Below, one piece after another: positions 3,656 to 39,339 of a stretch of DNA of 40,849 nt. Source of the stretch: Saprospiraceae bacterium (lineage in GTDB: Bacteria > Bacteroidota > Bacteroidia > Chitinophagales > Saprospiraceae); contig JAEUUU010000052.1 in the NCBI GenBank assembly GCA_016787345.1, positions 1-40,849 on the forward strand, read 5' to 3'. Every line of letters starts with the position of its first letter. The stretch's first letter is position 1. The notes beneath the pieces were generated by a model. The model was not told where the DNA came from. It searched no databases and saw only the letters and a list, made by a program, of their open reading frames with translations. The translations under genes and the position numbers were made by a program.

Positions 3656-4306
3656 TTATCGTTTTTCATACAAAAACTGCCTGTCCGGCTGCATCAAGGG
3701 GTGTCCGCCGCGCAGGCCGCCGTCTTCGAGGCGCAGTTCGAAATGGTCGAACGCGATCTCCACGATAGAAGGCGACAGGGTAAATTCGAAATACCGGTCG
3801 GCGGGCTGCGCGACCTCGACCACACAGGGCACATTGGGCCACAACTGATGCAAGAGGTATATTTTCCGGATAGACTGGTCTGTATCGAAATAAATCAATC
3901 CGCTGCTATTGCTTTCCGCCTGAAACAGTTGCCCCCCGGTCGTCTCGATCTGACACAGGATGTAACCCAGAATGTCGCGGTTGGCGTCGGTCACCTGGAT
4001 CGCGATGCCGGGGGCTTCGCCCTTCGCACTTTTTTGCAACACAAAATCGGGCGCCGGTTTCGGCGGACTCTGGAGGATCAGGGTGTCGCCGTTCTGCGAC
4101 CAGCTGCCTTTCCCGAAGCGATCGACGGCCCCATAGATGAAAAAGAAATCGAAACTGCTGTCCGCATTGATCCGGAAGCCGGAGGCCAGCTCCGGCACGC
4201 CGTTGAGGTAATATTCTCCGGTTGGCATAGACGAGGGTGTTTGTGCGAAAACCGACTGAACGGCGATCGCAAGTAAAGTCATCAGGGTGGAAGGTTTAAC
4301 CATCAT
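3656..4306 (-). CDS. Secreted protein of unknown function
   Basis: About 216 residues with a signal peptide (MVKPSTLMTLLAIAVQSVFA, probable cleavage before QTPSS). The start lies in an ATGATG that overlaps the TGA stop of the upstream ferredoxin gene, so translation is probably coupled; either ATG (4306 or 4303) could be used. A longer in-frame extension upstream is an antisense-like shadow of the ferredoxin frame. The mature protein is rich in beta-strand pattern: a GEYYLNGVPELASGFRI segment followed by a short GKGSWSQNGDTLIL hairpin like those in lipocalin-type or DUF beta-barrels. The second half, from about residue 105, is another beta-rich block. No catalytic motif is seen. Its coupling to a ferredoxin is unexpected for an exported protein. 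Confidence 0.75.
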   Translation of the reverse strand: MMVKPSTLMTLLAIAVQSVFAQTPSSMPTGEYYLNGVPELASGFRINADSSFDFFFIYGAVDRFGKGSWSQNGDTLILQSPPKPAPDFVLQKSAKGEAPGIAIQVTDANRDILGYILCQIETTGGQLFQAESNSSGLIYFDTDQSIRKIYLLHQLWPNVPCVVEVAQPADRYFEFTLSPSIVEIAFDHFELRLEDGGLRGGHPLMQPDRQFLYEKR

Positions 4307-20542: not shown

Positions 20543-21259
20543 TCAACGGCAGCCTTCGCTTTGTAGAATGTTGTTCATGGCCTGCTTTGCCGTTCGGGCA
20601 AATTGGGCGGCTTTTTCCCAGGAATCGGAAGTCAGGGCGTTGCTACAGGCCTGTGTTGCGATCAGCACTTGTTCGCGGGTGTTGCGGCAATTGGGCAATT
20701 GTTCGGAGAGGTACTCCATGTCGTGAAGTATATCGAGTGCATGTTCCAGTTTTTGCGCCATGACATGGAAATCGGCGACGGCCAGCGCATCCTGAAGGTC
20801 GTTGGACACGATTTCAGCGTCTTTTCGCAATACGTCGGACAGTTGGTATCCGGCCGACCCTTTTTCAGCGGCCGGCATACAAGCGGCGGCGGCTTCGCGC
20901 ATACGTATGGCCTGTAGTCGGGCTTCGGCAGCGCGAATTTTCAGGCTCATCAGGTCTTTTTCTTCTTTGAACTGCGTGAGGTCGCAAATTTGCCGGCCGC
21001 GTTCGGCAGCAATTCGGGCGTTGTGGCAATACAAGCCGGCATGGGCCACGGCCGTAAAGTCCTCCCAGGCAATATACAGATAGAGCAGGAGGTTGTACTG
21101 ACCTTCACCCCGTGTCGCCAGATCGAGAGAAGAGTCGATTTTTACGGAAACAGACTGGACCCAGCGCAGGGTTTCGCGGCTGTCGGTGGGGGTATTGGGC
21201 GTTTGGGCAGTGCCAGCAAGGGCAAAAAACAGAAAAGCAAATACAGACACAAAGCGCAT
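20543..21259 (-). CDS. Secreted helical protein of unknown function
   Basis: 238 residues with a signal peptide (MRFVSVFAFLFFALAGTAQT). The mature protein is almost wholly alpha-helical (SLKIRAAEARLQAIRMREAA, NDLQDALAVADFHVM, EHALDILHDMEYLSEQL, WEKAAQFARTAKQAMNNIL) with six cysteines that may form disulfides in the periplasm. I do not recognise a family. It lies 57 bp upstream of sdaA on the same strand and could share a transcript with it. Confidence 0.7.
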   Translation of the reverse strand: MRFVSVFAFLFFALAGTAQTPNTPTDSRETLRWVQSVSVKIDSSLDLATRGEGQYNLLLYLYIAWEDFTAVAHAGLYCHNARIAAERGRQICDLTQFKEEKDLMSLKIRAAEARLQAIRMREAAAACMPAAEKGSAGYQLSDVLRKDAEIVSNDLQDALAVADFHVMAQKLEHALDILHDMEYLSEQLPNCRNTREQVLIATQACSNALTSDSWEKAAQFARTAKQAMNNILQSEGCR

Positions 21260-21315
21260 GGTAAAGGGTTTTCCTTTTACAACAGCTTTGTGACCGGATT
21301 GTTACGATCGTATAT

Positions 21316-21789
21316 TCAGACCATTAAACCGGCAAACCCTATGACTCGAACGTTCTTTTTACCCTTGGGTTCGAACTGAATACCTTCCCCGTTGAGGTAC
21401 GCTGCTTGTAAAGGTCCGCCGCCGGGCAATTTTTCATTCAGGGAGCCGTCGTCGCGTACCAGCCGCCACCAGGGCGTCACTTCCGTGCGGCCCTGCGCCC
21501 GGTCCTCTTCAGCAGTTTCCGCCGCAATGCGGGCGAAGATGCCGGTTGTAAGCGGACAGGCAAAGTCGGCGTTGAAATCGGCTGCCAGTTGTTCGCGCAG
21601 CCGGCCAATCGTAATCAGCCTGCCTTTGGGTACCTGGCGGAGTTTTTCGTCGACCAACAGCGCGTTGGCAATCAGCATTTTATGGCCGCCGTAACGTTCG
21701 GCCCAATCTTTCGGCGCTTCTTCGATGCGGGGCGGTTCGTGTTTTTCGAGTTTGCGGCGCCAATGGCCGGGTGGTTTGGGCTTTTTCAT
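21316..21789 (-). CDS. Alkyltransferase-like protein (MGMT-fold, ATL type)
   Basis: 157 residues. From VPKGRLITIGRLREQLAADF (53-72) on, it follows the winged-helix DNA-binding domain of O6-methylguanine-DNA methyltransferases. In place of the active-site PCHR it has PWWR (106-109), so the acceptor cysteine is missing. This is the mark of ATL proteins, which bind O6-alkylguanine, flip it out of the helix and pass it to nucleotide excision repair. LPGGGPLQAAYLNGEGI follows, in the position of the family's LxGYGGGxxxKxxLLxxE. Residues 1-45 are an extra basic N-terminal tail. Confidence in the fold is high; DNA binding is inferred. Confidence 0.85.
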   Translation of the reverse strand: MKKPKPPGHWRRKLEKHEPPRIEEAPKDWAERYGGHKMLIANALLVDEKLRQVPKGRLITIGRLREQLAADFNADFACPLTTGIFARIAAETAEEDRAQGRTEVTPWWRLVRDDGSLNEKLPGGGPLQAAYLNGEGIQFEPKGKKNVRVIGFAGLMV

Positions 21790-21940
21790 GTTTTGTCACG
21801 TCTTTTATTGGAAGGAAAAATACCGGCTTTTTGTATTTCTAAGGCGATCATTGAACTTTTACCGGACAATTCACTTCTTACGCCGTACAAACAATAGCCG
21901 CCGGGCTCATTTGGATTCTGAACAAAATTGAAAATCAAAT

Positions 21941-21964
21941 CCTCGCATCCTCGCATCCTCGCAT
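21941..21964. repeat. Three tandem copies of CCTCGCAT
   Basis: The octamer CCTCGCAT occurs at 21941, 21949 and 21957, followed by looser copies (CTTCAAAT, CCTCACAG), ending just before the OsmC start at 21984. Together with the AAAATCAAAT before it, this is a low-complexity leader. Slippage here could change expression of the OsmC gene. Confidence 0.7.
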
Positions 21965-21983
21965 CTTCAAATCCTCACAGCAC

Positions 21984-22412
21984 ATGAGCGAACACCACGT
22001 CACTACCCGTTGGGCCGGCAAAATGGCCTTCGACAGCACAGTTGGCAACCACGTCGTCCGGATCGATTCCAAGCCGGAGGCCGGCGACGATTCCGGCCCC
22101 GGCCCCAAATCGCTGTTGCTGGTTGCCCTCACCGGCTGCACCGGTATCGATCTCGCCGCGCTTTTGCCAAAAATGCGCGTCAAGTTTGACACCCTTGAAA
22201 TCGAGGCCGCCGCCCCGCTGACGGAAGAACATCCGCGGGTGTATACCGAAATCAGACTGCTATTTCGGGTGCGAGGAAGAAATCTGAGCGAGGAAAAGAT
22301 TCGCCGGGCCATCGAACTCTCCCAGGAAAAATACTGCGGCGTGACGGCCATGCTCAAGGCCCATTGCCCGATCACCTGGTCGCTGGAACTGGTAGACGAG
22401 GCTTCTAAGTAA
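21984..22412 (+). CDS. OsmC-family peroxiredoxin
   Basis: 142 residues, the usual length. Cys52 in GPKSLLLVALTGCTGIDL and Cys118 in SQEKYCGVTAML are the peroxidatic and resolving cysteines of OsmC/Ohr proteins, which reduce organic hydroperoxides in the cytoplasm. The start at 21984 opens MSEHHVTTRWAGKMAF, with the early W and G usual for the family. It is divergent from the ATL gene; the 194-bp gap holds the tandem octamer. Confidence 0.92.
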   Translation: MSEHHVTTRWAGKMAFDSTVGNHVVRIDSKPEAGDDSGPGPKSLLLVALTGCTGIDLAALLPKMRVKFDTLEIEAAAPLTEEHPRVYTEIRLLFRVRGRNLSEEKIRRAIELSQEKYCGVTAMLKAHCPITWSLELVDEASK

Positions 22413-22507
22413 TTTCTAAGGAAATTATAAACCGGTTCTAAGGAGCCTCAGGTCAGGGGGGCGGTTCTTTGCAGGCAGTTCTTTGTTTATCAATCCTGTC
22501 GCATCGT

Positions 22508-23434
22508 ATGAATTTTCGCACTACTCTGTCTCTGCTCCTGCTGTTGGGCGGCTTCGGGTTGTTTCCGGTTTTTTCCGGCGCCCAGAGCCTGACCGATGGC
22601 ATTTTTATGAACAAAAAATTCCTGTGCGCCGGCGTGTTTTATGGTCACGACGCCTGGGATGAATACTGGGAAGGCACCCTGTTGCGTACCAATGGCAATA
22701 TCGGTACCGTCACGACCCAAAACGTGCTGCTCGGGCTCAACTACGGCATCACCGACCGGCTCAATGCCGTGGTGATGGCGCCCTACGTCTGGACGGAAGC
22801 CAGCGCCGGCACACTCGCCGGACAGTCTGGTATCCAGGATCTTACTCTGGGACTTAAATACAACGTCGTGGCCTTCAATGGCCTGGGTGGTCGAATGTCG
22901 GTACAGGCTGTCGCGGGGGGCTCCCTGCCCTTGACCGATTATGTGGCCGATCACCTGCCCTTGTCGATCGGTTTGCAAAGCAAAACCCTCTTCGGGCGCG
23001 GTATTTTGCATTATGCAGCCGAAAACAACCTCACCTTTTTGCTGTCGGGTACCTATACCCTTCGCAGCAACATCGAAATCGATCGGGAATCGTACTACAC
23101 CACCGAACAGATCTACTCCAATGAAGTGGAGATGCCCGACGCTGCCCAATTGTATTTCCGGGGCGGCTACTATTCGTTCCGCTGGGGCGCCGAACTGACG
23201 GCCAGCCACAACATGACCCTGGGCGGCTTCGATATCCGCCGGCAGGATATGCCTTTCCCCTCCAACAACATGGACCTTACGCGCGTCGGCGTGGAAGCAT
23301 TTTACCGCTTTTCGTTTCTGGGCGATCTTCAATTGCTCGGACAGGTCAACCAAACCGTTGCCGGTCGCAACATGGGCAAGTCGCTGGGCTGGACCCTCGG
23401 GCTGACCAAATTTATCAATTTCAACAAGGATTAA
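22508..23434 (+). CDS. Outer-membrane transporter-like barrel
   Basis: 308 residues from the ATG at 22508, with a signal peptide (MNFRTTLSLLLLLGGFGLFPVFSGAQ). The rest is a chain of amphipathic strands (VLLGLNYGITDRLNAVVMAPY, LTLGLKYNVVAF, MSVQAVAGGSLPLTDY, RVGVEAFYRFSFLGDLQLLGQV) like those of MetA-pathway/phenol-degradation-type or similar transporter barrels. No substrate is indicated. The last residues (LGLTKFINFNKD) lack a terminal aromatic. It is followed by a terminator and a PAP2-type lipoprotein gene. Confidence 0.8.
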   Translation: MNFRTTLSLLLLLGGFGLFPVFSGAQSLTDGIFMNKKFLCAGVFYGHDAWDEYWEGTLLRTNGNIGTVTTQNVLLGLNYGITDRLNAVVMAPYVWTEASAGTLAGQSGIQDLTLGLKYNVVAFNGLGGRMSVQAVAGGSLPLTDYVADHLPLSIGLQSKTLFGRGILHYAAENNLTFLLSGTYTLRSNIEIDRESYYTTEQIYSNEVEMPDAAQLYFRGGYYSFRWGAELTASHNMTLGGFDIRRQDMPFPSNNMDLTRVGVEAFYRFSFLGDLQLLGQVNQTVAGRNMGKSLGWTLGLTKFINFNKD

Positions 23435-23454
23435 GTTTTGTGAAAGCGTGTTAG

Positions 23455-23496
23455 AAACCGGGGGCGAATACCATTGTTCAAGCCCGGTTTTCTTTC
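23455..23496 (+). terminator. Probable terminator after the barrel gene
   Basis: AAACCGGG (23455-23462) pairs with CCCGGTTT (23483-23490), followed by TTCTTTCC. It is 20 bp past the barrel stop and 41 bp before the next start, so it may attenuate rather than fully stop transcription. Confidence 0.6.
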
Positions 23497-23536
23497 CGGT
23501 CTTTTATTTATTCAATTGAATTTCAATTTCATAGAA

Positions 23537-25087
23537 ATGAAAAAACATATACTCTCCCTACTTGCTTTTTCTGTGCTTTTCTTCATTTTTTCCGCTTGCG
23601 ACAAAGAGGTGACAGGAGAATACGCCGAACTTCAGCCCCTGTCGCCAGCCAATCAGGATCTCAACGCCGGCGCCTGGAAAACGGTCGTGCTGGCTACGCC
23701 CGATGAAGTTGCCGTGCCGGCGCCATCCGACGTAAATTCGGCCGAATACCAGGCCGAAGTGGCCGCCAGCAAACAAGCGCTGGCCGGTTTGACCGATGAG
23801 CAGAAAGAAATCATTCGCTACTGGAGTGCAGGCTCGGTGCTGCGCTGGAACGAGATCATGCGTTATCTGGTTGCCAAACACAACCTGGCGCCTGCGCCCA
23901 ATGCCGACGGGACCTATCCCGTACCGGATGCCAGCAACCCGTTTTCCTATCCCGAATTTCCGTTTGCCAACCCGCCTTACTCCGCCCGCGCTTATGCCTA
24001 TGCCAGTGTGGCACAGTTTGACGCCCTGGTGGCCGGCTGGCATTTCAAGAGCCTGTACAACCGCCCTGCGCCGTACAATGTCGATGCGACGATCGAGCCG
24101 TATCACGTCGTGAAAACAAGCCTCCCGACTTACCCGCTTGAAGACGCCGTGGTAGCCGGCGCGGCCTTTACCATGCTGCGCGCCCTGTTTCCGGCCGACA
24201 CGGCATTTATCAATGAAAAGGTAAATGAAGCCGCCTGGTACAAACAATGGGCCGGCGCCGCTGTGGCATCCGATGTTACGGCCGGTCTCAACCTGGGCAA
24301 ATCGGTGGCTGCCAAGGTGCTCAACCGCGCCAAAAGCGACGGTATGAAAAACGCGATCGGCAGCAAAGCCATTCAGGATAGTTTGCAGCAACGGGTTGAA
24401 GCCCTGGGCGAAACCTCCTGGAAAAGTCTGGAAAGCCCGAACCGCCTGGGTATGCTGGTCCAATTTGGCAAGGTAAAACCGTGGTTGTTCGATCCCGCCA
24501 ACATCGAAGCCGTGCGCCCTGCCGCGCCTCCTTCCACTCAGTCCGATGCTTTCAAAGCCCAGTTGGAAGAAGTCAAACGCGAAGCCGACCCCTCCGACCG
24601 TGAAAAAATGCGCATCGTACATTTTTGGGCCGACGGCACCGGCACTTACACCCCTCCGGGGCACTGGAACGTGTTTGCCTTTGAGGAAATTTACAACGCC
24701 GGTCAGAGCGAAGTACGGGCTGCCCGCAACTTTGCCCTCCTGAACATGGCTATGATGGATGCCGCTATTGCCTGCTGGGAAGCCAAGTATCACTATATGG
24801 TGCCGCGCCCCAGCCAGATGGACCCTTCGATCAAAACCCTGACGGGACTGCCCAATTTCCCTGCTTATACCTCCGGACATTCCACCTTCTCTGCTGCCGG
24901 TGCTACCGTTCTGGGGCACTTGTTTCCTTCAAAGGCGGCCACCTTTAATGCCTGGGCCGAAGAGGCTTCACTGTCGCGTTTGTATGGCGGGATTCACTAT
25001 CGGATGGATTGCGAAGCCGGGTTGCTTTGCGGCCAGGTGATCGGTGGCTTTGCCGTCGACCGGGCGCGGACGGATGGTGCGGAGTAA
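23537..25087 (+). CDS. PAP2 / vanadium-haloperoxidase-like lipoprotein
   Basis: 516 residues from the ATG at 23537. LFFIFSAC makes a lipobox with Cys21, so the protein is a lipoprotein. The C-terminal third carries the acid-phosphatase/haloperoxidase site: Lys417 and Arg424-Pro425 (KYHYMVPRP), SGH with His448 (YTSGHSTFSAAG) and SRLYGGIHY with Arg481 and His487. These are the residues that hold phosphate or vanadate. PAP2-type proteins of this build act as phosphatases or, with vanadate, as haloperoxidases; sequence alone does not tell which. The N-terminal 150 residues are helical. The in-frame 21-codon extension upstream of the ATG has no function seen. The stop lies directly against the left repeat array. 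Confidence 0.88.
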   Translation: MKKHILSLLAFSVLFFIFSACDKEVTGEYAELQPLSPANQDLNAGAWKTVVLATPDEVAVPAPSDVNSAEYQAEVAASKQALAGLTDEQKEIIRYWSAGSVLRWNEIMRYLVAKHNLAPAPNADGTYPVPDASNPFSYPEFPFANPPYSARAYAYASVAQFDALVAGWHFKSLYNRPAPYNVDATIEPYHVVKTSLPTYPLEDAVVAGAAFTMLRALFPADTAFINEKVNEAAWYKQWAGAAVASDVTAGLNLGKSVAAKVLNRAKSDGMKNAIGSKAIQDSLQQRVEALGETSWKSLESPNRLGMLVQFGKVKPWLFDPANIEAVRPAAPPSTQSDAFKAQLEEVKREADPSDREKMRIVHFWADGTGTYTPPGHWNVFAFEEIYNAGQSEVRAARNFALLNMAMMDAAIACWEAKYHYMVPRPSQMDPSIKTLTGLPNFPAYTSGHSTFSAAGATVLGHLFPSKAATFNAWAEEASLSRLYGGIHYRMDCEAGLLCGQVIGGFAVDRARTDGAE

Positions 25088-25566
25088 CTGTAGCGCTGTA
25101 GCGCCGCTGTAGCGCCGACCTCCAGGTCGGCGATGCTGAGAGCAGCAACAACCCGCGATTAACAGCTATTGCTCCGATCGAAAATTTCAAGTAGATTTTT
25201 TTCGGAGCAATCGCTGATAATCGCGGGTAATTTCTTTTTGTAGCGTCGCCGACCTGGAGGTCGGCGCTACAGGTCGGCGACGCTGAGAGCAGCAGCAACC
25301 CGCGATTAACAGCTATTGCTCCGATCGAAAATTTCAAGTAGATTCTTTTCGGAGCAATCACTATTAATCGCGGGTAATTTCTTTTTGTAACGTCGCCGAC
25401 CTGGAGGTCGGCGCTACAGGTCGGCGATGCTGAGAGCAGCAACAACCCGCGATTATTAGCCATTGCTTCAATCGAAGATTTCAAGTAGATTTTTTTCGGA
25501 GCAATCACTATTAATCGCGGGTAATTTCTTTTTGTAGCGTCGCCGACCTGGAGGTCGGCGCTACAG
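25088..25566. repeat. Left array: three 147-bp tandem repeats with a palindromic frame
   Basis: Units start at 25124, 25271 and 25418, each 147 bp (49 codons). Terminal 27-base arms at 25107-25133 and 25246-25272 are exact inverse copies (CTGTAGCGCCGACC... and ...GGTCGGCGCTACAG), so the first unit looks like a 166-bp inverted-repeat element. Inside, ACCCGCGATTA and TAATCGCGGGT close a second, nearly perfect 27-base stem around a loop with TTTCAAGTAGATT. Truncated copies of the arm (CTGTAGCG, CTGTAGCGCCG) fill the space from 25088. The array fills the gap between the two stop codons of converging genes. No protein function is assigned to the frame it keeps open. Confidence 0.95.
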
Positions 25567-25573
25567 GCCGTCG

Positions 25574-27970
25574 TTACTGCCCTCCTTTGATCCTCGAATT
25601 CTCTTTCTCCGCTCCGATATTGCGATCACGTGCATTGTCTGAATTCCGGCCAAAACGCCAGGATAAACCAATATTCAGCTGCTGACTTTCCCAATCATTG
25701 CGCATACTGCCGCGTACCGGACCGAAGTCGACTTTTTGTACCCAGCGCTGACTGTCGAAAACGTCCCACCAGGCCAGGCGCAGCGTCAGCCGGTCGCCCA
25801 AAAGGTTCTTTTTGAATGCGAGATTGGCATTCCAGATTCCCTCGTTGGTAAACATACCGTCGCGCGTAGGGAACTGCGCCCACCCGGACACTTCAACGCG
25901 AAAAGATTTGGGCAACGTAAATTCCTGACTCAAATAACATCCGCCACCCCAGGCCCGGGCGTCGAGCAAGCCGTCGGTCAGCCGGGCCCGAAAGTGGTTG
26001 TGCCAAACGCCGAGCCACAGGTAGCCCTCCCACCAGTCTTTGATCGGGAGGGGAGAGTTGAGGTTAAAACTGATTTGATCCTGACGACTCAAATTGTCCG
26101 GTTGGGTAAATACCTGCTCACCGACCTGCCGGGCGATGGTGCTCACACCTGCTGTTGTTCGCGTATAGCCTATGGAGAGCCCGGCTGCATCTTTGTACGA
26201 ATAGCTGAGCTCGCCGTTCCACGAAAAAGAAGGCCGCAGGTACGGATTGCCCTGTTCGGAGGTATAGGGATCAATCTGCCAGATAAACGGGTTGAGGTCC
26301 TGGAACGCAGGGCGGTCGAGCCGGCGGTTGAGCGACAAGCCGAGCTGGTGATCGTCGGCAGGCCGAAACTGAAGGTAGGCTGTCGGGAAGATACCCAGAT
26401 AAGCGGTGTCGGGGCGGTTGTCCGTTTGGCCGCTTAGCGACAGGGAACGGCCGTCGATACGTGTCCGTTCGGCGCGCACGCCGATTTGCCAGCGCCAGGG
26501 GCCCGACTGGCGGCCATAGTTGGCATAAGCAGCCGTGATATTTTCGTCAAAACGGAACAGGTTACTCCGGCTGGTGTCCGGGGAAGGGCCATCACCAGGG
26601 TCGACCGTGGTGAATAGGTTGTGGTCGGTTGTCGACCAACTCGTTCTGAATCCAGCTTCGGCTTTATAACCCGCAGGGGTGGTTTTTTCCCAGTCCGATT
26701 TGATTACCCAAACCCCGATGTCGCCGTTGATAGCCGTTACAAGCTGGTCGAAATCAGAAGCGTTTCCTTGTTGGTCGAATCGCTGATTATTCAGCGCGTT
26801 TTGCGATGACTGGGTAAACAGGATACGGTCGGCGTCGATTGTCCATTCGAGTCCCAGTGTATCGGCATATCGGTAGTTCAGGTTGACGTTCCAGCGGCGG
26901 TTTTGCTCCGGGTTGAATCGTTCGGTGAACAAACTGCTTTCAATTTGCGTGTCCGACGAAATCTGGGTGCGGTTGAGGGCCCTGGTATCATGATCGTAGT
27001 CGGAGCCGATGGCCAGCAAGCTCAGGCTGTTGCGGTCATTGAGGTTCCAGTCGACGCCGGTTTTGATAAATTGGGTTTGCCATTCGGAGGTAGCCGGGTT
27101 CGTTTGGTTAAAAAACTGGTTACCTACCTGGCGTTCGATGCGTTGATCGACCAGTTGGGCGGCATCGTTGAGGGAGTATTGAAGGTACAAATTCACAGCG
27201 CCGGGCCGGTAGTTCAGATTGATGCCGCCCTGCGCACGGTGGTGCAACGACTGGCTGTAAGAGCCGTTTACGCTGCCGTTCCAGCCTGCCGCCGCATTTT
27301 TTTTCAAACGGATATTGATAATACCCCCAACGCCCTGTGCTTCGTATTTGGAGGAAGGCTGAGAAATGAGTTCGATCGAACGGACATTGTCGGCAGGAGT
27401 TGAACGCAGGACATTGACGAGTTCGCTGCCGCTGAGTTGGAGGGGCCGGCCGTCGAACATGACCATCACACTGGTTTTGCCGTTGAGCAGTATGGCATCC
27501 TGTGGCGTGATGACGACTCCCGGACTGCGCTGGAGCAGTTCATAGGCGCTGTTTCCCAGCGCGGCGGTTGTTCCTTCAACGTTGACCACGATTTTATCGA
27601 CGAGCCGCTCCACAACCGGCACTTTTGAACGGACAGTCGCTTCGCCAAGCGAGAGGGCCGAGCCGGAGAGCCGGCTGACCGGTATTTCGAGGTCGTTTTG
27701 GTCTTTGATCTCCACGGGTATAAACACGTCAGTGTAGCCGATCAGGCTGGCTTGTACCAGATAGGCGCCCGGCTTGCCGACAGTAATGACATACCTGCCC
27801 GTTTCATCGGCGGAAGAACCTGCTAAAAATGAACTATCGGGCAGGCTGATTAAGCGGATTGTGGCAAAGGAGGCGGGTGTCCCATCGGGCAATTCCACGC
27901 GGCCAATGAGATTTTGGGCATTGGTAGAATAAAAGATGAAGGCAAGCAGGACGGTAAACAGGCGATACAT
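25574..27970 (-). CDS. TonB-dependent receptor-family barrel (OMP_b-brl_3 type)
   Basis: 798 residues with a signal peptide (MYRLFTVLLAFIFYSTNAQ). Residues 20-110 are a carboxypeptidase-regulatory-like beta sandwich (LPDGTPASFATIRL, ADETGRYVITV, GAYLVQASLIGYTD). The plug-like domain is at about 110-225 (VVERLVDKIVVNVEGT, LQRSPGVVI, VMFDGRPLQLSG, IELISQPSSKYEAQGVGGIINIRLKK). The remainder is a long barrel ending FGRNSDNARD. Such proteins import oligomers or siderophores with TonB, or act in secretion; the ligand is not clear. The AraC-like regulator is directly upstream on the same strand. Confidence 0.9.
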   Translation of the reverse strand: MYRLFTVLLAFIFYSTNAQNLIGRVELPDGTPASFATIRLISLPDSSFLAGSSADETGRYVITVGKPGAYLVQASLIGYTDVFIPVEIKDQNDLEIPVSRLSGSALSLGEATVRSKVPVVERLVDKIVVNVEGTTAALGNSAYELLQRSPGVVITPQDAILLNGKTSVMVMFDGRPLQLSGSELVNVLRSTPADNVRSIELISQPSSKYEAQGVGGIINIRLKKNAAAGWNGSVNGSYSQSLHHRAQGGINLNYRPGAVNLYLQYSLNDAAQLVDQRIERQVGNQFFNQTNPATSEWQTQFIKTGVDWNLNDRNSLSLLAIGSDYDHDTRALNRTQISSDTQIESSLFTERFNPEQNRRWNVNLNYRYADTLGLEWTIDADRILFTQSSQNALNNQRFDQQGNASDFDQLVTAINGDIGVWVIKSDWEKTTPAGYKAEAGFRTSWSTTDHNLFTTVDPGDGPSPDTSRSNLFRFDENITAAYANYGRQSGPWRWQIGVRAERTRIDGRSLSLSGQTDNRPDTAYLGIFPTAYLQFRPADDHQLGLSLNRRLDRPAFQDLNPFIWQIDPYTSEQGNPYLRPSFSWNGELSYSYKDAAGLSIGYTRTTAGVSTIARQVGEQVFTQPDNLSRQDQISFNLNSPLPIKDWWEGYLWLGVWHNHFRARLTDGLLDARAWGGGCYLSQEFTLPKSFRVEVSGWAQFPTRDGMFTNEGIWNANLAFKKNLLGDRLTLRLAWWDVFDSQRWVQKVDFGPVRGSMRNDWESQQLNIGLSWRFGRNSDNARDRNIGAEKENSRIKGGQ

Positions 27971-28040
27971 GGGTGGAAAAGTTTTGCTGTGAAAGAATGG
28001 GGCAAAACTCCATCAACAGAGCAGCCTGTATGCTGCAAGG

Positions 28041-28066
28041 GATGATTTGAGACGTCTCAAATCATC
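28041..28066. promoter_or_regulatory. Perfect 26-bp palindrome between regulator and receptor genes
   Basis: GATGATTTGAGAC at 28041-28053 is followed directly by its exact reverse complement to 28066, with no loop. It lies 13 bp after the regulator stop and 71 bp before the receptor start. With no loop and no T-run on the minus strand, a binding site for a dimeric regulator fits better than a terminator. Cruciform or transcript processing is also possible. Confidence 0.55.
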
Positions 28067-28078
28067 TTTTGAGCCCGG

Positions 28079-29233
28079 TCAGGCCTTGGATAGGTACTCG
28101 GAGGGGGATTGTCCGGTCGCTTTTTTAAACGCCCGGTTGAAGGTCGCTTTGGAGTTGAAACCGCATTCGAACGCGACGCCCAGCAACGATAAATGAGCAG
28201 CGTCGGGGTCGTTCATTTTTTCCTTGACCGCTTCTACCCGGTAGGCATTGATAAAGTCGTTGAAGTTTTTGTCGAAGCCGGCATTGACCAGATAGGACAG
28301 TTGGGAAACATTCATACCCGTTTGGGCGGCCAGTTCTGACAGCGTCAGGTCGGGATCGAGCCAGGGACGTCGCTCCGACATAAAAGCGGCGAGTTTTTCG
28401 CGGCGTGCAACCAGTTCTCCAGGCGTAAATAACACTTTTCCGCCGGCTGAACCGGCGGTTCCGGTTTCCGTCATTTTAACTTCCCGTTGTTCCAGGTCAT
28501 CGAAGGAAACCACGACTTTTTGTACAAATGCCCAACCCGTCACGCTGATATAATACAGCAGTATTGCCCGGGTCAGTTCCAGCCAGTACCAGCCGGTATA
28601 CCACAGGTCGATCCAAAGATTGACCAGATTGAAAATCAGGCTGGCCAGGTAATACGCTGCAAATACATACAGGAAGTTGCGCAGCCAGTCGAGTGTAAGC
28701 CGGTCGGTATTCGAATATTCCGATTGGAGCAAACGCCTGTAGGCTGCATATCGTTTCAGGGATAAAAACAGATAAATGCCAAGGGACGTCGCCAGCAATG
28801 CTTCGTCGAATATACTCACCCAGGGCGCTCCGAACGCTTCTTTTTGGGCGGGGGGTAAAGACCACATGTAAAAACTCACGGCGTAATAAAGCGCCGGCAG
28901 AAAAAAATGCCCCCATGTTTTTGGTCGCCACTGAAATTGCCGGTCGGTTACCGCGAGCACGTACAACCAGATCAGGGGGCCCAGCAAATAGCCGTTGCCG
29001 AATGGAAAATAGGTCAGATCCCAGCCCTGCTCCGCAGCATAATCGTATACGCCCATAAACCCGATGAAGAAGGAAATCAGGGACGTGACCAGTGCCAGCA
29101 ACAGACCCGACAGAATTACGTCGCGCAACTGCCGCCTGCGAATACCGCGGTGCAGCAGGAGTCCTGCAATAACAAGGCCTTGCACCATGGCAAGCAGCAG
29201 GAGGATGGAGCGAAGATTGATGGCGAAGTTCAT
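28079..29233 (-). CDS. Membrane-embedded AraC-type transcription regulator
   Basis: 384 residues. Residues 1-235 contain about seven hydrophobic helices (for example LLLLAMVQGLVIAGLLL, VILSGLLLALVTSLISFFIG, LLGPLIWLYVLAV, LYVFAAYYLASLIFNLV). Residues about 280-384 are an AraC HTH domain: LTLSELAAQTGMNVSQLSYL is the first helix-turn-helix and LLGVAFECGFNSKATFNRAF with KKATGQSPSEYL is the second, as in the family. A 7TM-AraC layout is common in Bacteroidota and lets a membrane event control DNA binding. The start codon lies only 2 bp from the right repeat array, so its promoter must be within the array or farther upstream. Together with the downstream receptor it may form a regulator-target pair. 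Confidence 0.92.
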   Translation of the reverse strand: MNFAINLRSILLLLAMVQGLVIAGLLLHRGIRRRQLRDVILSGLLLALVTSLISFFIGFMGVYDYAAEQGWDLTYFPFGNGYLLGPLIWLYVLAVTDRQFQWRPKTWGHFFLPALYYAVSFYMWSLPPAQKEAFGAPWVSIFDEALLATSLGIYLFLSLKRYAAYRRLLQSEYSNTDRLTLDWLRNFLYVFAAYYLASLIFNLVNLWIDLWYTGWYWLELTRAILLYYISVTGWAFVQKVVVSFDDLEQREVKMTETGTAGSAGGKVLFTPGELVARREKLAAFMSERRPWLDPDLTLSELAAQTGMNVSQLSYLVNAGFDKNFNDFINAYRVEAVKEKMNDPDAAHLSLLGVAFECGFNSKATFNRAFKKATGQSPSEYLSKA

Positions 29234-29235
29234 GT

Positions 29236-29707
29236 TGTAGCGCCGACCTGTAGCGCCGACCTCCAGGTCGGCGATGTTGAGAGAAGAAATTACCCGCGAT
29301 CATCAGCGATTGCTCCGAAAAGAATCTACTTGCAATCTTCGATGGAAGCAATGGCTATTAATCGCGGGTAATTTCTCTTTGTAGCGTCGCCGACCTGGAG
29401 GTCGGCGCTACAGGTCGGCGATGTTGAGAGCGGGAATAACCCGCGATGATTGATGATTGTTCTGAAAAGGATTTACTTGAAATTTTAGATTGGAGTAATC
29501 GCTAATAATCGCGGGTAATTTCTTTTTGTAGCGTCGCCGACCTGGAGGTCGGCGCTACAGGTCGGCGACGCTGAGAGCGGGAATAACCCGCGATGATTGA
29601 TGATTGTTCTGAAAAGGATTTACTTGCAATCTTCGATGGAAGCAATCGCTATTAATCGCGGGTAATTTCTTTTTGTAGCATCGCCGACCTGGAGGTCGGC
29701 GCTACAG
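29236..29707. repeat. Right array: three 147-bp repeats with the hairpin core inverted
   Basis: Units start at 29265, 29412 and 29559 with the same 147-bp period as the left array. The outer arms (29248-29274 and the arm ending at 29707) and the flanks GAGAG... and AATTTCTTTTTGTAGCG keep the left-array orientation. The core between ACCCGCGAT and ATCGCGGGT is reverse-complemented: AATCTACTTG here, CAAGTAGATT in the left array. A truncated arm lies at 29236-29247. The array fills the gap between the RNase H stop (6 bp away) and the AraC start (2 bp away). Confidence 0.93.
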
Positions 29708-32865: not shown

Positions 32866-35800
32866 ATGCAAAGACACCTATACTTACTCTCGATTTTATT
32901 CTTTTTCCGGGAATTACCCGCCCAAAACATTCAGATTGACTATTCCTCGCCGACGAGTTTTTTCGTGTGCGATACCGCACTATTCACCCTGTCGCTGAGC
33001 AACAACAGCGCGGTGGCTTCGGGAGCGATCAACACGACGATCAATCTGCCGCCGGGCGTCGATTATGTGCCCGGTTCGGTGACCGGCGCCACTGAAAACG
33101 GGGGGGCTTCCAATGCGCCCGTTTTTTCGGTTCCCGGACTGGCGGCCGGCGGTAGCCAGAGTATCACATTTGTCGCGCGGGCGTCGTGTGATCTGGTGGC
33201 GGCGATCAATGCCGGCCAGCAATTTGCCAACACGATCGGGGTCAGCTGGCCGGGTGGCAACAGCAGTATCACGACGGCGCCCTATCCCATAGAAACACCA
33301 TTGCTGCTGATCGTGAGCAGCACCAATTCCAATACGTTTGCGCAATTGGGTCAACAGGTCGTCCGCACCTTTACCATTCGGAATACGCGCCTGGGCGCTT
33401 TGAGTGGATTCACTTTTCAGGATAGTTATCCCGACGGCGGATTTACGGTGAGCGCCGACGTCGGTACGGTGACGGCCAACACAGGCACGCTTTTTATCCT
33501 GCAACTCGGCCCCGTTGATTTTCAGCAGATTGGCGATGGCGACGGTTTGTTCGAGTTGGGGGAGGAAATCATCGTGACGGAGACTTTGACCATAACGGAG
33601 TGCGGTATTGATCTGAACCAAAGCTTGTCGTCGCTGAATGCTTCGTGGAGCTGCGAGGGCGAGGTGTGTCAGAACAGCAACAGCGTAGCGACGGTGAATT
33701 TTTTGCAATCAGGCGGCAAACCCAAACTCAAATTTAAAGGCGTCGTCAATGTCCAGGAAGACCTCTGCGGCGAATTGCCTACGCGCCAGCATGTAACCAT
33801 CACCAACGTGGGCGACCAGCCGGCCATCGGCTCCTGGTACTGCCTCTTCATGCTGGAGGGCGACGGCGGCCCCGATATTCCCTGGGCCGGTATCGACACG
33901 ACAACGCTGGGAGTCGACAGCGCGGGTGTCTGGAAGCGATTGTATGCCTACTCGGCCATTCCGGCCACGCTGTGGGATTGCCCCGGAGAAGGTCCGTTTT
34001 ATTCGAACGTTTGTTTCAACATACCCTGGATTGGGCCGGGGGATTCGGTTGTGGTGGGGTTTGATCTGTACGCCTGTTCGGCCGAGTGCCCGAGCGATTT
34101 TGCCGGTTGGCAGATCGATTACTGGTTGCCCAAAAATTGTCCGCCGGGCGAAGTAGAGAACGGCTATGGCATTGGCCCGGCGCCGTACGTTATCGATGTG
34201 CTCGACGATCCCGAATGGCAGATTTGCCTGAAAGAACCCATGCAGGACGATCAGGAATACGCCATATTGTACAGTCTAAGTTCTTTGTTGCTGTCCGATT
34301 CGCAAGGCGTCGTGCGCGTCAGTTTCCGTTTGCCCTGCGGGATGAGCTGGGGCACACAGCCTTTTACACTCAATGGCGTCAGCCCGGTCGATACGGGCGT
34401 TTACCCTGATGCCGACACAACCGTGCATTGGTTTGAATTTCCGACGCCGATCGGACAATCGTTTGCGGTGGGGCAGTTCAGCGTTGTCTGGGATTGCGAC
34501 CAGCCCTGCGCCGACCGGGAAAGCGAGTGCCTGCATTATTTCGATGGCCCCGGAGATTGTCCCATGCCCTGCGACGCCGACCCCGATTCATTGCCCCGGA
34601 CCGGTTTGCGGGTGATTTCCGAGTTTTTGCTGCATCCGCTGGTGGCGCCCGGTTGCGGCATCAAACAATGCCTGGAATATGATCTGGTGTACGATTGCTC
34701 GGGCGATTCCTGTTTGACGCCCGTTAGCGGATGGGTCGAACATCAATCGGGTATTTTGCGCAACAGTTGGGGACTGCCCGACAACGACGGCGACCGCGTG
34801 GCCGATGCCGGTGGGACACTCGATTTCAACAAAATCAGACTGGATCGCTTTATGCCCGGCGATACGGCGGAGACGCTTTTGCAGGGCGTAGTGCGCGGCA
34901 GCCAGCCCGGTCTCTCCTTTGAAAACGGCCTGTTGCGGCTCTATTTCGATGCCTATGAATCGGATATCGACATCGATACGGGTACGCTTTTCCCACCCTG
35001 CGGGTATTTCGACAACCATTTGATCGCTCCGCTGAGTGCCGTGCTGCGTTTGCGTGATGCGGAGACCGGGCAAGTGTACACCTGCATGCTCGGCGAACCG
35101 GAGAAGGAATGTTACGACCGCCAAATCGTGACGATCAACGTAAGTTCCCTGCTTTGCGCCGATACCATCAACAATATGTCAGGGCTGAGCTGGACCTGGG
35201 ATATTTCACCGGCGGCGCTCGCGGCGGCGGGTTGTGCGGTGCCGGCCGGTTTTGTGTTTACGGATGGCGACAGCATCGAGTTGCGGGTGCTGAGCCGTTT
35301 TGTGAATCCCCTGCCCACCGATCAGCTCCTGAACATCCGGGCAGGCAGCTTCGCGAGCGTGTTCAACGGCTATGCGCCGGAGACCGAAAACTATGCCGCG
35401 CCGCCGCAGGATTTTTCCTGCTCCTGCCCCTACGACCTGATCCAATACACGCCGGTGCAGGTTTTTCTCAACCGCTCGAAGTATTACCTGCCGCCCTGCG
35501 AGCCGTCTGTTTCGCCGATGCAGGAGGATTTTACGGTGCGGCTTGCCTTCGGCGATTTTTTTCCTTTTGAATACCGGCCCATCGTTCGTGTCCGGCAAAT
35601 GAATGATTGGGTGCCGGCGCCCGTGGTGTTGACCAACACTTTTCTCGACAGCCTGGTATTGCAGGGCGGTCCTGTCATTTTGCAGGACGTACCGCTGGGC
35701 AGCAGTGTGGACGGCGAATTGTTTGCCACACCGCTGACCGAATTGCCGGAAGTAGACGAAGGTTTTACCCTGCATTTTAACCAAACTTACGAAGCCTCCT

Positions 35801-38800
35801 GCAACCTGAATCTGATCAAACCGCTCGAAGTCGGGGTGTTGTTCAACTGGTTGCCGCCGCTTCCGTTCGGCGAAGAAGGCATCGTGGATACGATCTTTTC
35901 CTACGACCCGATCAAAGAGGACACTTTTGCCTTTATCCCCATCCGACCGGCGCTGACGGCATTTTCACCCCAACCCAACCTGATCGGGACGGGCAATGTA
36001 GTAGAGTGGAATGTTACCCTGCTGGCGGTCGGCGACCCGGTGACGGCGCCCAATGGCTGGGTCTATCCGCAATCGAACAGTGGCTTGCTGACCGATTTTC
36101 AACTGCTCGAACTACCCGGCCTGACGCCGGTTCCGGCCGTCAATGGAATTTTTCAGATTGGGGAAGTGCCTTCTGGCGATGTGCGGCAATACCGGCTCGT
36201 GGCGCGGAACAACAGTTGCGGGGAGGAAATCCTGCTGCTTTTTTATGGCTGGAACTGTGATACGCTTACTGTGGCCAACGATTTTGCCTGCCAGCGGAAA
36301 AATATCGTGCTGAAAGTACAGGCACAGCCTGCCGAACTGGAAATTGACATTGATTCACCTGCCGGAACGGCTGCTTTGTGCGACACGACGGATTACCACG
36401 TGGTGGAAGTGTTCAACGCCTTGTACGGAGCGGCGTACTATCCACGCCTGGGTTTTCAGTTGCCTCCGTATCTCGACCTGGCGCCGGGCAGTTGCCAAAT
36501 TGCTTTCCCGACGGGCGCCAACTGGCAGAGCCTGCCCGACCCGCAGCCGCAACCAAACGGCTGGCTGGGCTGGGACCTGGCCGACTGGAACGCGGTGCTG
36601 GCGCAGGATGGCCTGGCGGGATTCCCGTTTGCGCCCGATCATTCGTTGAGTGTACGATTCCGGACCCTGAGTAATTGCGGATTTATCTCGGGTGATAAAA
36701 TTCTGTACCGCACCTGGGCAGAGCAAACCTGCGGCGATACCACCAACCTGCTCGTGAAACCTGGCGATCCGATTGCGCTCGACGGGGTGCCGCCGCCTTA
36801 CCAGGCTGCATTGAGCATCGGTTCGGGCGCTCCGCCGCCCGTTTTATGCGGCATGCCAGTGCCGATGCAGGTGCAGTTTAGTGCTGCTGCCGCCACTGGC
36901 GCATCGGATAGCATTTTTGTGCTGCTACCGCCCGGCGCGACGTACGTGGCGGGTTCCTACCAGGCCGGCGCCAATGCTCCGACGGCCGCGCCGTTTATTC
37001 AAAGTATTAATAATCAGCTTGTTTTACAATGGCGGCTCTTGCCCGGAGTACCTGCGGGAAGTGCTGTCGTTTTGGGTTTTACGGTGCAAAACCTGGGCGC
37101 TGCCGGCTGTGTGCCGGATACTTTCCGGGTTTGGTCGACCCAACAGCAAAGCGCGGTGTGTGTGGCCGACGGTTCGCTTTGTTCGTTCCCCACGCAGACG
37201 GGCGAGGCTTCCTACACCCTGCAAATTGCGCATCCGGATTTGAGTCTGAATGCTTTTAACGTGACTTTGGAGAACAACACGGCCAACTTTGCGCTGAGCA
37301 TCACCAATTCCGGTATGGTGAATATCGAAGACCCTTACATCCTGCATTTTTACCGCGACAATGATGCCAATGGCGTCCTCTCGGCCGGTGATGTTTTGCT
37401 GGAAACAGCAAGCAGTCAGGCGAATACCGCGCCAGGCCAGACCGTGACGCTCATCGGTGCTTTGTCGATCGAACTGGAAGACCTGTGTCACCTGCTTGTG
37501 TCGCCCGAGCTTTCAGCGCTTTGTCTGTGCGACACCCTGAGCCTTGGGCTGGATTCGCTGGGCATCAGCCTGGCGCCGCTGTCGATATGTTCCGGAGAGG
37601 TGGTCAGCCTGGGCGTTGGCCCACAGCCCAGCCATCAATACGCCTGGTCGCCCGCCAGCGGATTGAGTTGTACCGATTGCGCCGATCCGGTTTTACAGGG
37701 CATTTACAACCCCAATCCGCAGACTCAGGTGCTGACGTACCAGCTGACGGAATCTTCTGGCGCCTGTGTGGCTACGGGGCATCAGGAGATTAGTATTTAC
37801 CCCATGTTGTATGCCCTGAATGCGGATACCAGCATTTGCGCGGGGCAAGCGGTGTTGCTCGAAGCTTCGCCAGCCTGGTTGTATCACTGGACGGGGCCGG
37901 GTATACAGGACCCCTCGTTGCCCAGTCAATTGGTAGCGCCGGAGCAAACCGCGGTGTACATGGTGGACATCACAGACACCAACAACTGCACGGGTGTCGA
38001 CATGGTGCTGTTGACGGTGCTTCCTAGCCCTGACTTTGCATTTGAACAGGATACACTCGGGGTATGCGGCGCCGATCAATTGACCCTCGATGGTCCGGAA
38101 GGCCCGGATTTGACGTATGAATGGTCGCCTGCCGGAGCCGTCAGCAACCCCTCTATTGCCGATCCCGTATTTACCGGGCAGCAAAATACCTTGCTCATCC
38201 TGACGGTGACGAATGCCCAGCAGTGTGTCGCCAGTGATAGTATTTGGGTCGGGTTTTCCGACAATCCGGTTATTGAACTCTCGGTCCCGGCACTGGCAAA
38301 TTGCATCGGCGATACGGCGACGGTGAGTCTGACCGGTGCGGAAACGTATCAATGGTCGCCGGCTTCGGGTGTGATTTGTCTTTCGGGCGATTGCAGCGAA
38401 GTGTGGCTTGCGCCCTTGCAGACGACCGTGTACGAGGTAATCGGCGTCAATGAATTTGGATGTGCAGATACGGCTGCCTTGACCGTGACGGTACCGGGGG
38501 CGGTACAAAACACTGCCGAGACACTGGTCACCTGCGTAGGGGAGCCCGTTCCGGTTTTTGATATGGCGACGGATGCACCGGGGCTTTATTGTCGTACTTT
38601 TTCTGCTGCAAGCGGCTGCGATTCAACACATTGTATCACATTAGTCGCCAATGATACCTTATATGCCGAGTTGCTGCGAGCGCTTTGTCCGGGCGCAACC
38701 GTATCGGTTGGCGGGGTCAATTACACGCAGCCGGGGCGTTATTGCCAGACCTTTTTGACCCAGCAAGGCTGCGACTCGACGATATGTGTGGTAGTGGATG

Positions 38801-39339
38801 CTGTGGCAGCTCCCGCGGTTGATACGTTTATACGGATCGTGATTGGACCGGGCGAGACGCCGGTGCTGGGTTTGCCGGGCGGGTTTGCGGGTTATGCCTG
38901 GTCGCCGACGGAACATTTGTCGTGCGGAGATTGCCCGGCGCCGGTTTTTACACCGCCCGTGCCGGCGCCCGACAGTCTGACGTACACGGTCACGGTGACC
39001 AATGCAGCCGGTTGTACAACCGCGGTGACGTATCGAATCCGCATGTTACCGCCCTGCGATCCGGCGAATATTCGAATCCCCGATGCATTTTCACCCGACG
39101 GCGACGGGACCAACGATGTATTCCGGCCGGTAAAACAGGAGGGCCTGGAAGTGATACTGGGGCTTGAAGTGTACAACCGCTGGGGGCAGAAAGTGTATGC
39201 CGGTAGCGGCCCCGATGCGTCCTGGGATGGTCGGATAGACGGCAAGGCGGCCGCGGTGGATACCTACATTTACGTGCTGGAGGTGGTTTGTGACGGGGAG
39301 AAAGGGAAAAGGGTGGGGGAGTTGAATTTGTTGCGGTGA
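32866..39339 (+). CDS. Giant T9SS type B secreted protein with repeat domains
   Basis: 2157 residues with a signal peptide (LYLLSILFFFRELPAQ). The N-terminal part has conserved-repeat (DUF11-like) beta domains of the form NLPPGVDYVPGSVTGA. The middle is made of many further beta domains rich in Gly, Pro and Cys pairs. From about 1565 to 2060 come PKD/Ig-like domains with repeated WSPASGLSC-x-DC and CDST motifs. From about 2064 to the end is the gliding-motility-associated type B sorting domain: IPDAFSPDGDGTNDVFRPV, VYNRWGQKVY, WDGRIDGKAAAVDTYIYVLE. The protein is expected on the cell surface after T9SS export and may serve as adhesin or sheath. No catalytic site is seen. A short spacer upstream has no clear promoter. 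Confidence 0.92.
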   Translation: MQRHLYLLSILFFFRELPAQNIQIDYSSPTSFFVCDTALFTLSLSNNSAVASGAINTTINLPPGVDYVPGSVTGATENGGASNAPVFSVPGLAAGGSQSITFVARASCDLVAAINAGQQFANTIGVSWPGGNSSITTAPYPIETPLLLIVSSTNSNTFAQLGQQVVRTFTIRNTRLGALSGFTFQDSYPDGGFTVSADVGTVTANTGTLFILQLGPVDFQQIGDGDGLFELGEEIIVTETLTITECGIDLNQSLSSLNASWSCEGEVCQNSNSVATVNFLQSGGKPKLKFKGVVNVQEDLCGELPTRQHVTITNVGDQPAIGSWYCLFMLEGDGGPDIPWAGIDTTTLGVDSAGVWKRLYAYSAIPATLWDCPGEGPFYSNVCFNIPWIGPGDSVVVGFDLYACSAECPSDFAGWQIDYWLPKNCPPGEVENGYGIGPAPYVIDVLDDPEWQICLKEPMQDDQEYAILYSLSSLLLSDSQGVVRVSFRLPCGMSWGTQPFTLNGVSPVDTGVYPDADTTVHWFEFPTPIGQSFAVGQFSVVWDCDQPCADRESECLHYFDGPGDCPMPCDADPDSLPRTGLRVISEFLLHPLVAPGCGIKQCLEYDLVYDCSGDSCLTPVSGWVEHQSGILRNSWGLPDNDGDRVADAGGTLDFNKIRLDRFMPGDTAETLLQGVVRGSQPGLSFENGLLRLYFDAYESDIDIDTGTLFPPCGYFDNHLIAPLSAVLRLRDAETGQVYTCMLGEPEKECYDRQIVTINVSSLLCADTINNMSGLSWTWDISPAALAAAGCAVPAGFVFTDGDSIELRVLSRFVNPLPTDQLLNIRAGSFASVFNGYAPETENYAAPPQDFSCSCPYDLIQYTPVQVFLNRSKYYLPPCEPSVSPMQEDFTVRLAFGDFFPFEYRPIVRVRQMNDWVPAPVVLTNTFLDSLVLQGGPVILQDVPLGSSVDGELFATPLTELPEVDEGFTLHFNQTYEASCNLNLIKPLEVGVLFNWLPPLPFGEEGIVDTIFSYDPIKEDTFAFIPIRPALTAFSPQPNLIGTGNVVEWNVTLLAVGDPVTAPNGWVYPQSNSGLLTDFQLLELPGLTPVPAVNGIFQIGEVPSGDVRQYRLVARNNSCGEEILLLFYGWNCDTLTVANDFACQRKNIVLKVQAQPAELEIDIDSPAGTAALCDTTDYHVVEVFNALYGAAYYPRLGFQLPPYLDLAPGSCQIAFPTGANWQSLPDPQPQPNGWLGWDLADWNAVLAQDGLAGFPFAPDHSLSVRFRTLSNCGFISGDKILYRTWAEQTCGDTTNLLVKPGDPIALDGVPPPYQAALSIGSGAPPPVLCGMPVPMQVQFSAAAATGASDSIFVLLPPGATYVAGSYQAGANAPTAAPFIQSINNQLVLQWRLLPGVPAGSAVVLGFTVQNLGAAGCVPDTFRVWSTQQQSAVCVADGSLCSFPTQTGEASYTLQIAHPDLSLNAFNVTLENNTANFALSITNSGMVNIEDPYILHFYRDNDANGVLSAGDVLLETASSQANTAPGQTVTLIGALSIELEDLCHLLVSPELSALCLCDTLSLGLDSLGISLAPLSICSGEVVSLGVGPQPSHQYAWSPASGLSCTDCADPVLQGIYNPNPQTQVLTYQLTESSGACVATGHQEISIYPMLYALNADTSICAGQAVLLEASPAWLYHWTGPGIQDPSLPSQLVAPEQTAVYMVDITDTNNCTGVDMVLLTVLPSPDFAFEQDTLGVCGADQLTLDGPEGPDLTYEWSPAGAVSNPSIADPVFTGQQNTLLILTVTNAQQCVASDSIWVGFSDNPVIELSVPALANCIGDTATVSLTGAETYQWSPASGVICLSGDCSEVWLAPLQTTVYEVIGVNEFGCADTAALTVTVPGAVQNTAETLVTCVGEPVPVFDMATDAPGLYCRTFSAASGCDSTHCITLVANDTLYAELLRALCPGATVSVGGVNYTQPGRYCQTFLTQQGCDSTICVVVDAVAAPAVDTFIRIVIGPGETPVLGLPGGFAGYAWSPTEHLSCGDCPAPVFTPPVPAPDSLTYTVTVTNAAGCTTAVTYRIRMLPPCDPANIRIPDAFSPDGDGTNDVFRPVKQEGLEVILGLEVYNRWGQKVYAGSGPDASWDGRIDGKAAAVDTYIYVLEVVCDGEKGKRVGELNLLR

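Follow-up and report, generated by a model that had tools for sequence, protein, structure and literature searches.

In the window, by which we mean the whole 40,849-nt stretch of Saprospiraceae DNA that was analysed, a gene for an outer membrane receptor and a gene for an AraC-type regulator are enclosed by two arrays of three 147-bp units each, and the inner part of the units runs one way in the left array and the opposite way in the right array relative to the flanks. This raises the question how the core of such a unit comes to be reversed between flanks that stay in place, and whether the reversal has anything to do with the enclosed genes.

Two arrays with opposite cores

The six units in the window are all built in layers, in that a REP is followed by a short flank, the arm ACCCGCGATTA and an inner stem with its loop, after which the same layers come in mirror image. 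The segment from ACCCGCGAT to ATCGCGGGT is 78 nt long in all six units (Table 1). The cores of the two arrays are related. When the 74-nt cores were compared, the left cores read in reverse agreed with those of R1, R2 and R3 at 58-66 of 74 positions, as against 45-50 of 74 when read unflipped, and this unflipped baseline is high because the core itself is a quasi-palindrome. The initial annotation had therefore described correctly the pair of arrays, each of three 147-bp units, and the inversion of the core against the flanks, as well as the uniform core orientation among the three units within each array. That annotation had also called the match between the cores almost base for base, which is right for R1 (64-66/74) and too strong for R2 and R3 (58-61/74). 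R3 is a mosaic whose 5' half is that of R2 (37/37) and whose 3' half is that of R1 except for one base (36/37). On inspection of the sequence, the flank junction ACCCGCGATTA and the inner stem ATTGCTCCGA are each inverted repeats, so that the boundary of the flip may lie anywhere from the one to the other.

Table 1. Positions in the window of the two arrays, their REPs and inner hairpins, and the enclosed genes
Feature	Positions	Strand	Remark
Left REPIN array, three 147-bp units	25107..25573	.	End of a PAP2-family gene (+) on one side, end of the TonB-type receptor gene (-) on the other
REP (GTAG + palindrome) opening L1	25109..25132	+	Pattern match
Inner hairpin + core, L1	25151..25228	.	Core opposite to right array and to G025 ortholog
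REP common to L1 and L2	25247..25270	-	Pattern match
Inner hairpin + core, L2	25298..25375	.	
REP common to L2 and L3	25394..25417	-	Pattern match
Inner hairpin + core, L3	25445..25522	.	
REP closing L3	25541..25564	-	Pattern match
TonB-dependent-receptor-like outer membrane protein gene	25574..27970	-	Enclosed
AraC-type regulator gene	28079..29233	-	Enclosed
Right REPIN array, three 147-bp units	29241..29707	.	Start of the AraC-type regulator gene (-) on one side, end of an RNase H gene (-) on the other
REP opening R1	29250..29273	+	Pattern match
Inner hairpin + core, R1	29292..29369	.	
REP common to R1 and R2	29388..29411	-	Pattern match
Inner hairpin + core, R2	29439..29516	.	
REP common to R2 and R3	29535..29558	-	Pattern match
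Inner hairpin + core, R3	29586..29663	.	5' half as R2, 3' half as R1
REP closing R3	29682..29705	-	Pattern match

A REPIN family with its RAYT

The arrays do not stand alone. In the genome of the window (G000) the unit was recognised, in the stretches fetched, at least 67 times in 37 clusters of 1-3 units each on 24 contigs. Together with 33 units in the sister species (G025) this makes 100 in all, and these numbers are lower bounds that come from the fetched stretches, with one of the 33 (L151:4128) looking spurious. The automated gene-context labels were wrong for some neighbours, including those of the convergent left site, and were used only for the numbers of clusters and units. The REP is GTAGCGCCGACCTCCAGGTCGGCG with close variants, that is, the tetranucleotide GTAG followed by a short palindrome, which makes it a GTAG-type REP. 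Allowing up to 2 mismatches, this 24-nt GTAG-tagged REP has 122 matches in G000, 73 in G025 and 0 in the same-genus relative G061, and the controls gave 0. The REPs are paired in inverted orientation around a spacer, 138-147 bp apart, and the pairs are dispersed in many copies over the clusters of G000 in the stretches fetched, which is the arrangement that defines a REPIN.

A RAYT gene on contig C151 of G000 is bracketed by units, three on one side and two on the other, as is expected of the cognate RAYT. Its protein scores 100.4 bits with NF047646 (REP-associated tyrosine transposase) against a cut-off of 80, is above the cut-off for PF01797 and contains the PNHVHV stretch, and when used as a query it had one match in G000. 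No REP was present in the 5-6.5 kb fetched around each of the other three Y1 matches in G000. Since units lie on both sides of the C151 RAYT and the family is genome-wide, the arrays are REPINs of a RAYT system, here with a long nested palindrome; REPINs are reportedly known from the work of Bertels and Rainey. A RAYT was not found in the G025 assembly, which is 82% complete and in which contig ends interrupt the RAYT site. The RAYT of another genus member, G009, is 59% identical to that of C151, and related RAYT genes in the genus are adjoined by repeats in 6 of the 6 loci examined, strongly in three, these repeats being different in sequence from the C151-type repeats. A match to the unit was found in 3 of 42 same-genus genomes, one of them weak, and in 2 of 60 relatives when the left unit was the query. 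The REPIN sites themselves are old, as 22 sites in G025 adjoin, on at least one side, DNA that adjoins such an element in G000.

With 37 clusters and neighbours of varied families, a private array pair serving the receptor and regulator genes was rejected. Of ten open reading frames beside ten other clusters nine had Pfam matches, which were to different families, and these neighbours include a ClpB-like ATPase, triosephosphate isomerase, a threonyl-tRNA synthetase-like protein, RuvA and S1-domain proteins. The receptor-regulator pair between the arrays is thus probably incidental. No sign was found that the arrays influence the pair, although the right array, judging from its place upstream of the regulator gene, may affect the expression of that gene. 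It had been proposed that the two arrays support recombination around the enclosed genes, and this was not borne out at the left junction, where the receptor gene is collinear in G025 on a contig (C360) that covers the left side only. An inversion of the whole 25.5-29.2 kb segment was set aside on the same collinearity at the left junction, the right site in G025 being cut by a contig end and the best G025 match to the AraC-type regulator being 27% identical.

Core orientation between species

Contig C360 of G025 is orthologous to positions 20590-26986 of the window at about 91-94% identity, and the two are collinear for 2480 bp to the left and 1431 bp to the right of the left array. At this site G025 holds one unit and the window holds three. 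The left flank of the G025 unit is identical to those of L1 and L3 over 22 nt, and its central 40 nt match those of L1-L3 at 33-34 positions when reversed and at 19-22 positions as is. The reversed alignment to L1-L3 scores 26-28, and the best score among 61 other units of G000 is 9.0. Over the 74-nt core, the reversed left cores match the G025 ortholog at 62-64 positions. The two species thus have the core of the left site in opposite orientations between flanks that are kept, which agrees with the earlier deduction that only the inner segment had flipped. Inverted arms, an inverted spacer and flanks unchanged between orthologs are thus found together at the left site, as in a template-switch inversion.

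Passages of PMC8604942 describe template switching between short inverted repeats as a process that homogenises the arms and inverts the spacer, with inversions only where the arms are longer than 9 bp. The longest exact arm match is 11-12 nt in L1-L3 and in the left unit of G025. Single-stranded DNA folding of four of the six window units and of the left unit of G025 gave a single hairpin with z from -5.0 to -11.1 relative to shuffles. When 32 of the 67 units of G000 were aligned, two-sided compensatory change was present at 0 of 14 consensus pairs; covariation therefore gives no support for selection on the fold, and compensatory base changes were set aside as an argument for it. We give about an even chance to the explanation that these are REPIN/RAYT elements whose left-site core was flipped in place by template switching between the arms. 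A RAYT would have spread the REPINs in the past, and later the DNA polymerase would have switched templates between the inverted arms (ACCCGCGATTA and inner stem), on its own or on the sister strand, and would thereby have flipped the core. Growth from one to three tandem units, or homogenisation, after the flip would then have left three agreeing copies. Such a flip would need no dedicated recombinase and the enclosed genes would be bystanders. The initial annotation had placed the flip before the amplification, and the one unit of G025 against three in the window is compatible with this order, but homogenisation would look alike.

The flanks complicate the history of the left site. One right-flank type is common to both arrays of G000 and another is common to both sites of G025, which suggests, as far as flank sequences tell, that within each lineage the two sites have exchanged sequence. 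The left flank of R1 resembles the reverse complement of the right flank of the G025 left unit, one unit of the right array scored discordant with that G025 unit, and the readable end of the G025 right site, which is cut by the contig end, consists of a flank like the left flank of R1 and a core end like the right end of R2. Given this apparent exchange within lineages and the likeness of the R1 flank, the flip at the left site may have run in either direction. An outgroup for the direction was set aside, as only G061 carries a relative of the unit and a weak one. Because of the flank types shared between the arrays, the reversed left core could also derive from the neighbouring array. It would do so by ectopic gene conversion, in which another unit, in the case of the left array probably one of the right array 4 kb off, pairs inversely by means of the palindromic arms and has its core copied, and the outcome would again be a reversed core between unchanged flanks. 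The left cores match R1 about as closely as their own ortholog, R3 is made up of parts of R2 and R1, and the sharing of a right-flank type by the two sites within each species points the same way.

The orthologous sites bear on both of these explanations. Twenty-two site pairs were hand-chosen from the alignments of G000 and G025, of which 7 have aligned flanking DNA at both ends and the other 15 at one end. At 2 of the 22 the cores are unrelated or not matched clearly, as if the core were replaceable, and this too would fit conversion. The other 20 were scorable: 16 have the same orientation in both species (flanks agree in 13 and are undecided in 3), 3 have the whole element flipped, and one, the left site of the window, has only the core flipped. 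Among the seven two-sided sites 2 are flipped, L091 in the core only and L102 as a whole. The whole flip at L102/L065 is collinear on both sides with a recognisable common core, L100/L064 lies where there are signs of rearrangement, and L145/L069 is a weaker 'flipped' call that rests on a weak core match. The weaker 'same' calls are L096, where the unit boundary was misread, and L143, where the left flank is only 7 nt. This comparison omits the truncated right site (L152), a second alignment each of L093 (to L045) and of L144 (to L064), and those sites at which no unit was recognised in G025, among them L146, L147, L150, L153 and L155. The three whole-element flips, among them that at L102/L065, require no donor, and cores at the 16 sites that kept their orientation are homologous between the species, both of which speak against conversion; we regard it as possible, though not probable.

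The same sites argue against a site-specific recombinase that flips the core as a phase-variable switch on the neighbouring genes. It is true that the flipped segment is bounded by inverted repeats and that the right array takes up the region upstream of the regulator gene. However, a Pfam scan of seven open reading frames near the arrays (two of them without any match) found no recombinase family, similar elements lie at all the 37 clusters beside unlike genes, and orientation is kept between the species at 16 of 20 scorable sites, so such a switch is extremely improbable, and the dedicated invertible element that had been suggested finds no support among the seven neighbouring frames. The three whole flips would rather bring to mind a RAYT that cuts the REPIN out at its REPs as single-stranded DNA and re-inserts it the opposite way, the more so as a RAYT flanked by REPINs of the window type is present in G000. 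But an element put back from REP to REP would have its flanks turned as well, which at the left site stay as they are, and with no RAYT found in the 82% complete G025 assembly we think this very unlikely. It is also unlikely that the reversal is an assembly error in which a palindromic repeat was threaded the wrong way, even though the two assemblies are drafts in many pieces (191 and about 640 contigs), several G025 contigs start or stop within repeats, and the 27-nt REP raises the risk for whole-element flips. The left array joins unique DNA on both sides in both genomes, and the longest exact inverted match within the inner unit is just 7-15 nt (14 named units), which is shorter than the usual assembly k-mers.

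Template switching between the arms also has to be seen against the other units. There are 147 pairs of units with homologous cores in G000 and G025, drawn from 94 of the 100 units, and core-flank phase is concordant in 87 of them, discordant in 30 and undecided in 30. A single core orientation everywhere outside this locus had been named in advance as the finding that would count against an inversion, and the idea has survived that test in these two genomes. Because the pairs are not independent events, discordance was counted by core group: 11 of the discordant pairs belong to the window with its G025 ortholog, 13 to C1 compared with C105 and C53, and 6 to the C71 group. The C105 and C53 units have the core reversed against the flanks relative to three C1 clusters, and in the C71 group two adjacent elements disagree in the orientation of core against flank. 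The exact inner arms of two C71-group units (8-9 nt) and of one C1-group unit (7 nt) are below the limit reported for template-switch inversions. With core-against-flank reversals in these two further groups, inversion mediated by the hairpin or its arms, as first suggested from the window, is the best reading. One may go further and suppose that the REPINs of this lineage are self-inverting, so that the core or the whole body turns repeatedly without a dedicated enzyme, 4 of 20 scorable sites being different between the species; orientation would then record template switching and may be mixed within populations. We hold this wider view to be rather doubtful.

Relation to known systems

In passages of PMC3116915, REPINs are two inverted REPs with a spacer that form one long hairpin, are extragenic, occur also in tandem clusters and are associated with a RAYT, all of which is found here as well. 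The REPs are 138-147 bp apart here, whereas in those passages the doublets of a P. fluorescens strain peak at 71 and 110 bp, and, unlike there, the arms are nested and conserved (ACCCGCGATTA) and the core is locus-specific and has turned against its flanks, a reversal that those passages do not describe. The GTAG REPs and RAYTs in passages of PMC2817692 and PMC3733652 share with the present ones the 5'-GTAG, the short palindrome, the pairing of REPs with GTAG outermost and a RAYT between inverted REPs. Spacers with complementary ends and REP pairs within longer palindromes are described in a passage of PMC3733652, therefore a structured spacer by itself is not new. What differs from the passages of these two papers is that this lineage has a REP sequence and a spacer of its own, as the matches in 3 of 42 same-genus genomes, one weak, indicate, and that the core is reversed within fixed flanks, which those passages do not contain. 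In passages of PMC8604942, as here, the segment between inverted arms is reversed and its surroundings stay in place, but those inversions, of 2-5 bp substitutions, are in yeast coding sequence, and here tens of bp of a bacterial repeat would have been turned by the mechanism proposed.

Among the papers listed in the literature searched, which mostly lay outside subscription papers, we found no mention of a REPIN, REP or BIME whose core is inverted, and this is weak evidence of absence. The REPIN literature, to the extent that its passages represent it, concerns the spread and persistence of the elements. Should in-place inversion of cores occur at a measurable rate, template switching in wild bacteria could be measured from the record that orthologous REPIN sites would provide, and by the same token the orientation and core sequence at REPIN sites would be unsafe as simple vertical markers. 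The class of element to which these arrays belong is known, and what appears to be new is that a REPIN core is reversed relative to its ortholog between flanks that stayed fixed.

Cores and flanks of REPINs at orthologous sites

When the orthologous REPIN sites of the window's genome (G000) and its sister species (G025) were compared, there were two, L099 against L051 and L144 against L050, at which the outer layers were kept and the cores were unrelated or could not be resolved, and from the sequences these cores look as if they had been replaced. It was also found by alignment that one G025 REPIN links flanks that lie at two separate G000 REPIN sites, and that another flank has two matching places in G000, with identities of 96.0 and 97.7%. 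Together, the linked flanks and the doubly matching flank suggest that REPINs may be located at rearrangement breakpoints or at strain-variant contig ends.

Features and loci with their locations
Feature	Location	Strand	Source
Open reading frame, 2157 aa	window 32866-39339	+	ORF listing
Flank-joining locus L144	G025 C19		flank alignment
Flank-comparison locus L064	G000 C10		flank alignment
Flank-comparison locus L050	G000 C80		flank alignment
Flank-comparison locus L059	G000 C65		flank alignment
Start of C11	L045:1-1022 (G000 C11)		alignment with L093 (G025 C464)
Counterpart on C177	L047:502-2982 (G000 C177)		alignment with L093 (G025 C464)
Lone element	L162, ~3920-4043 (G061 C203)		

Identity of C11 and C177 to the sister species

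Identity to G025 is 99.7% for the first part of C11 and 95.0% for its counterpart on C177, a difference that suggests a recent transfer or a binning mix.

A degenerate element in G061

The same-genus genome G061 carries a lone degenerate element with a variant REP, whose core is similar to those of C105 and C53; it is possibly an outgroup copy.
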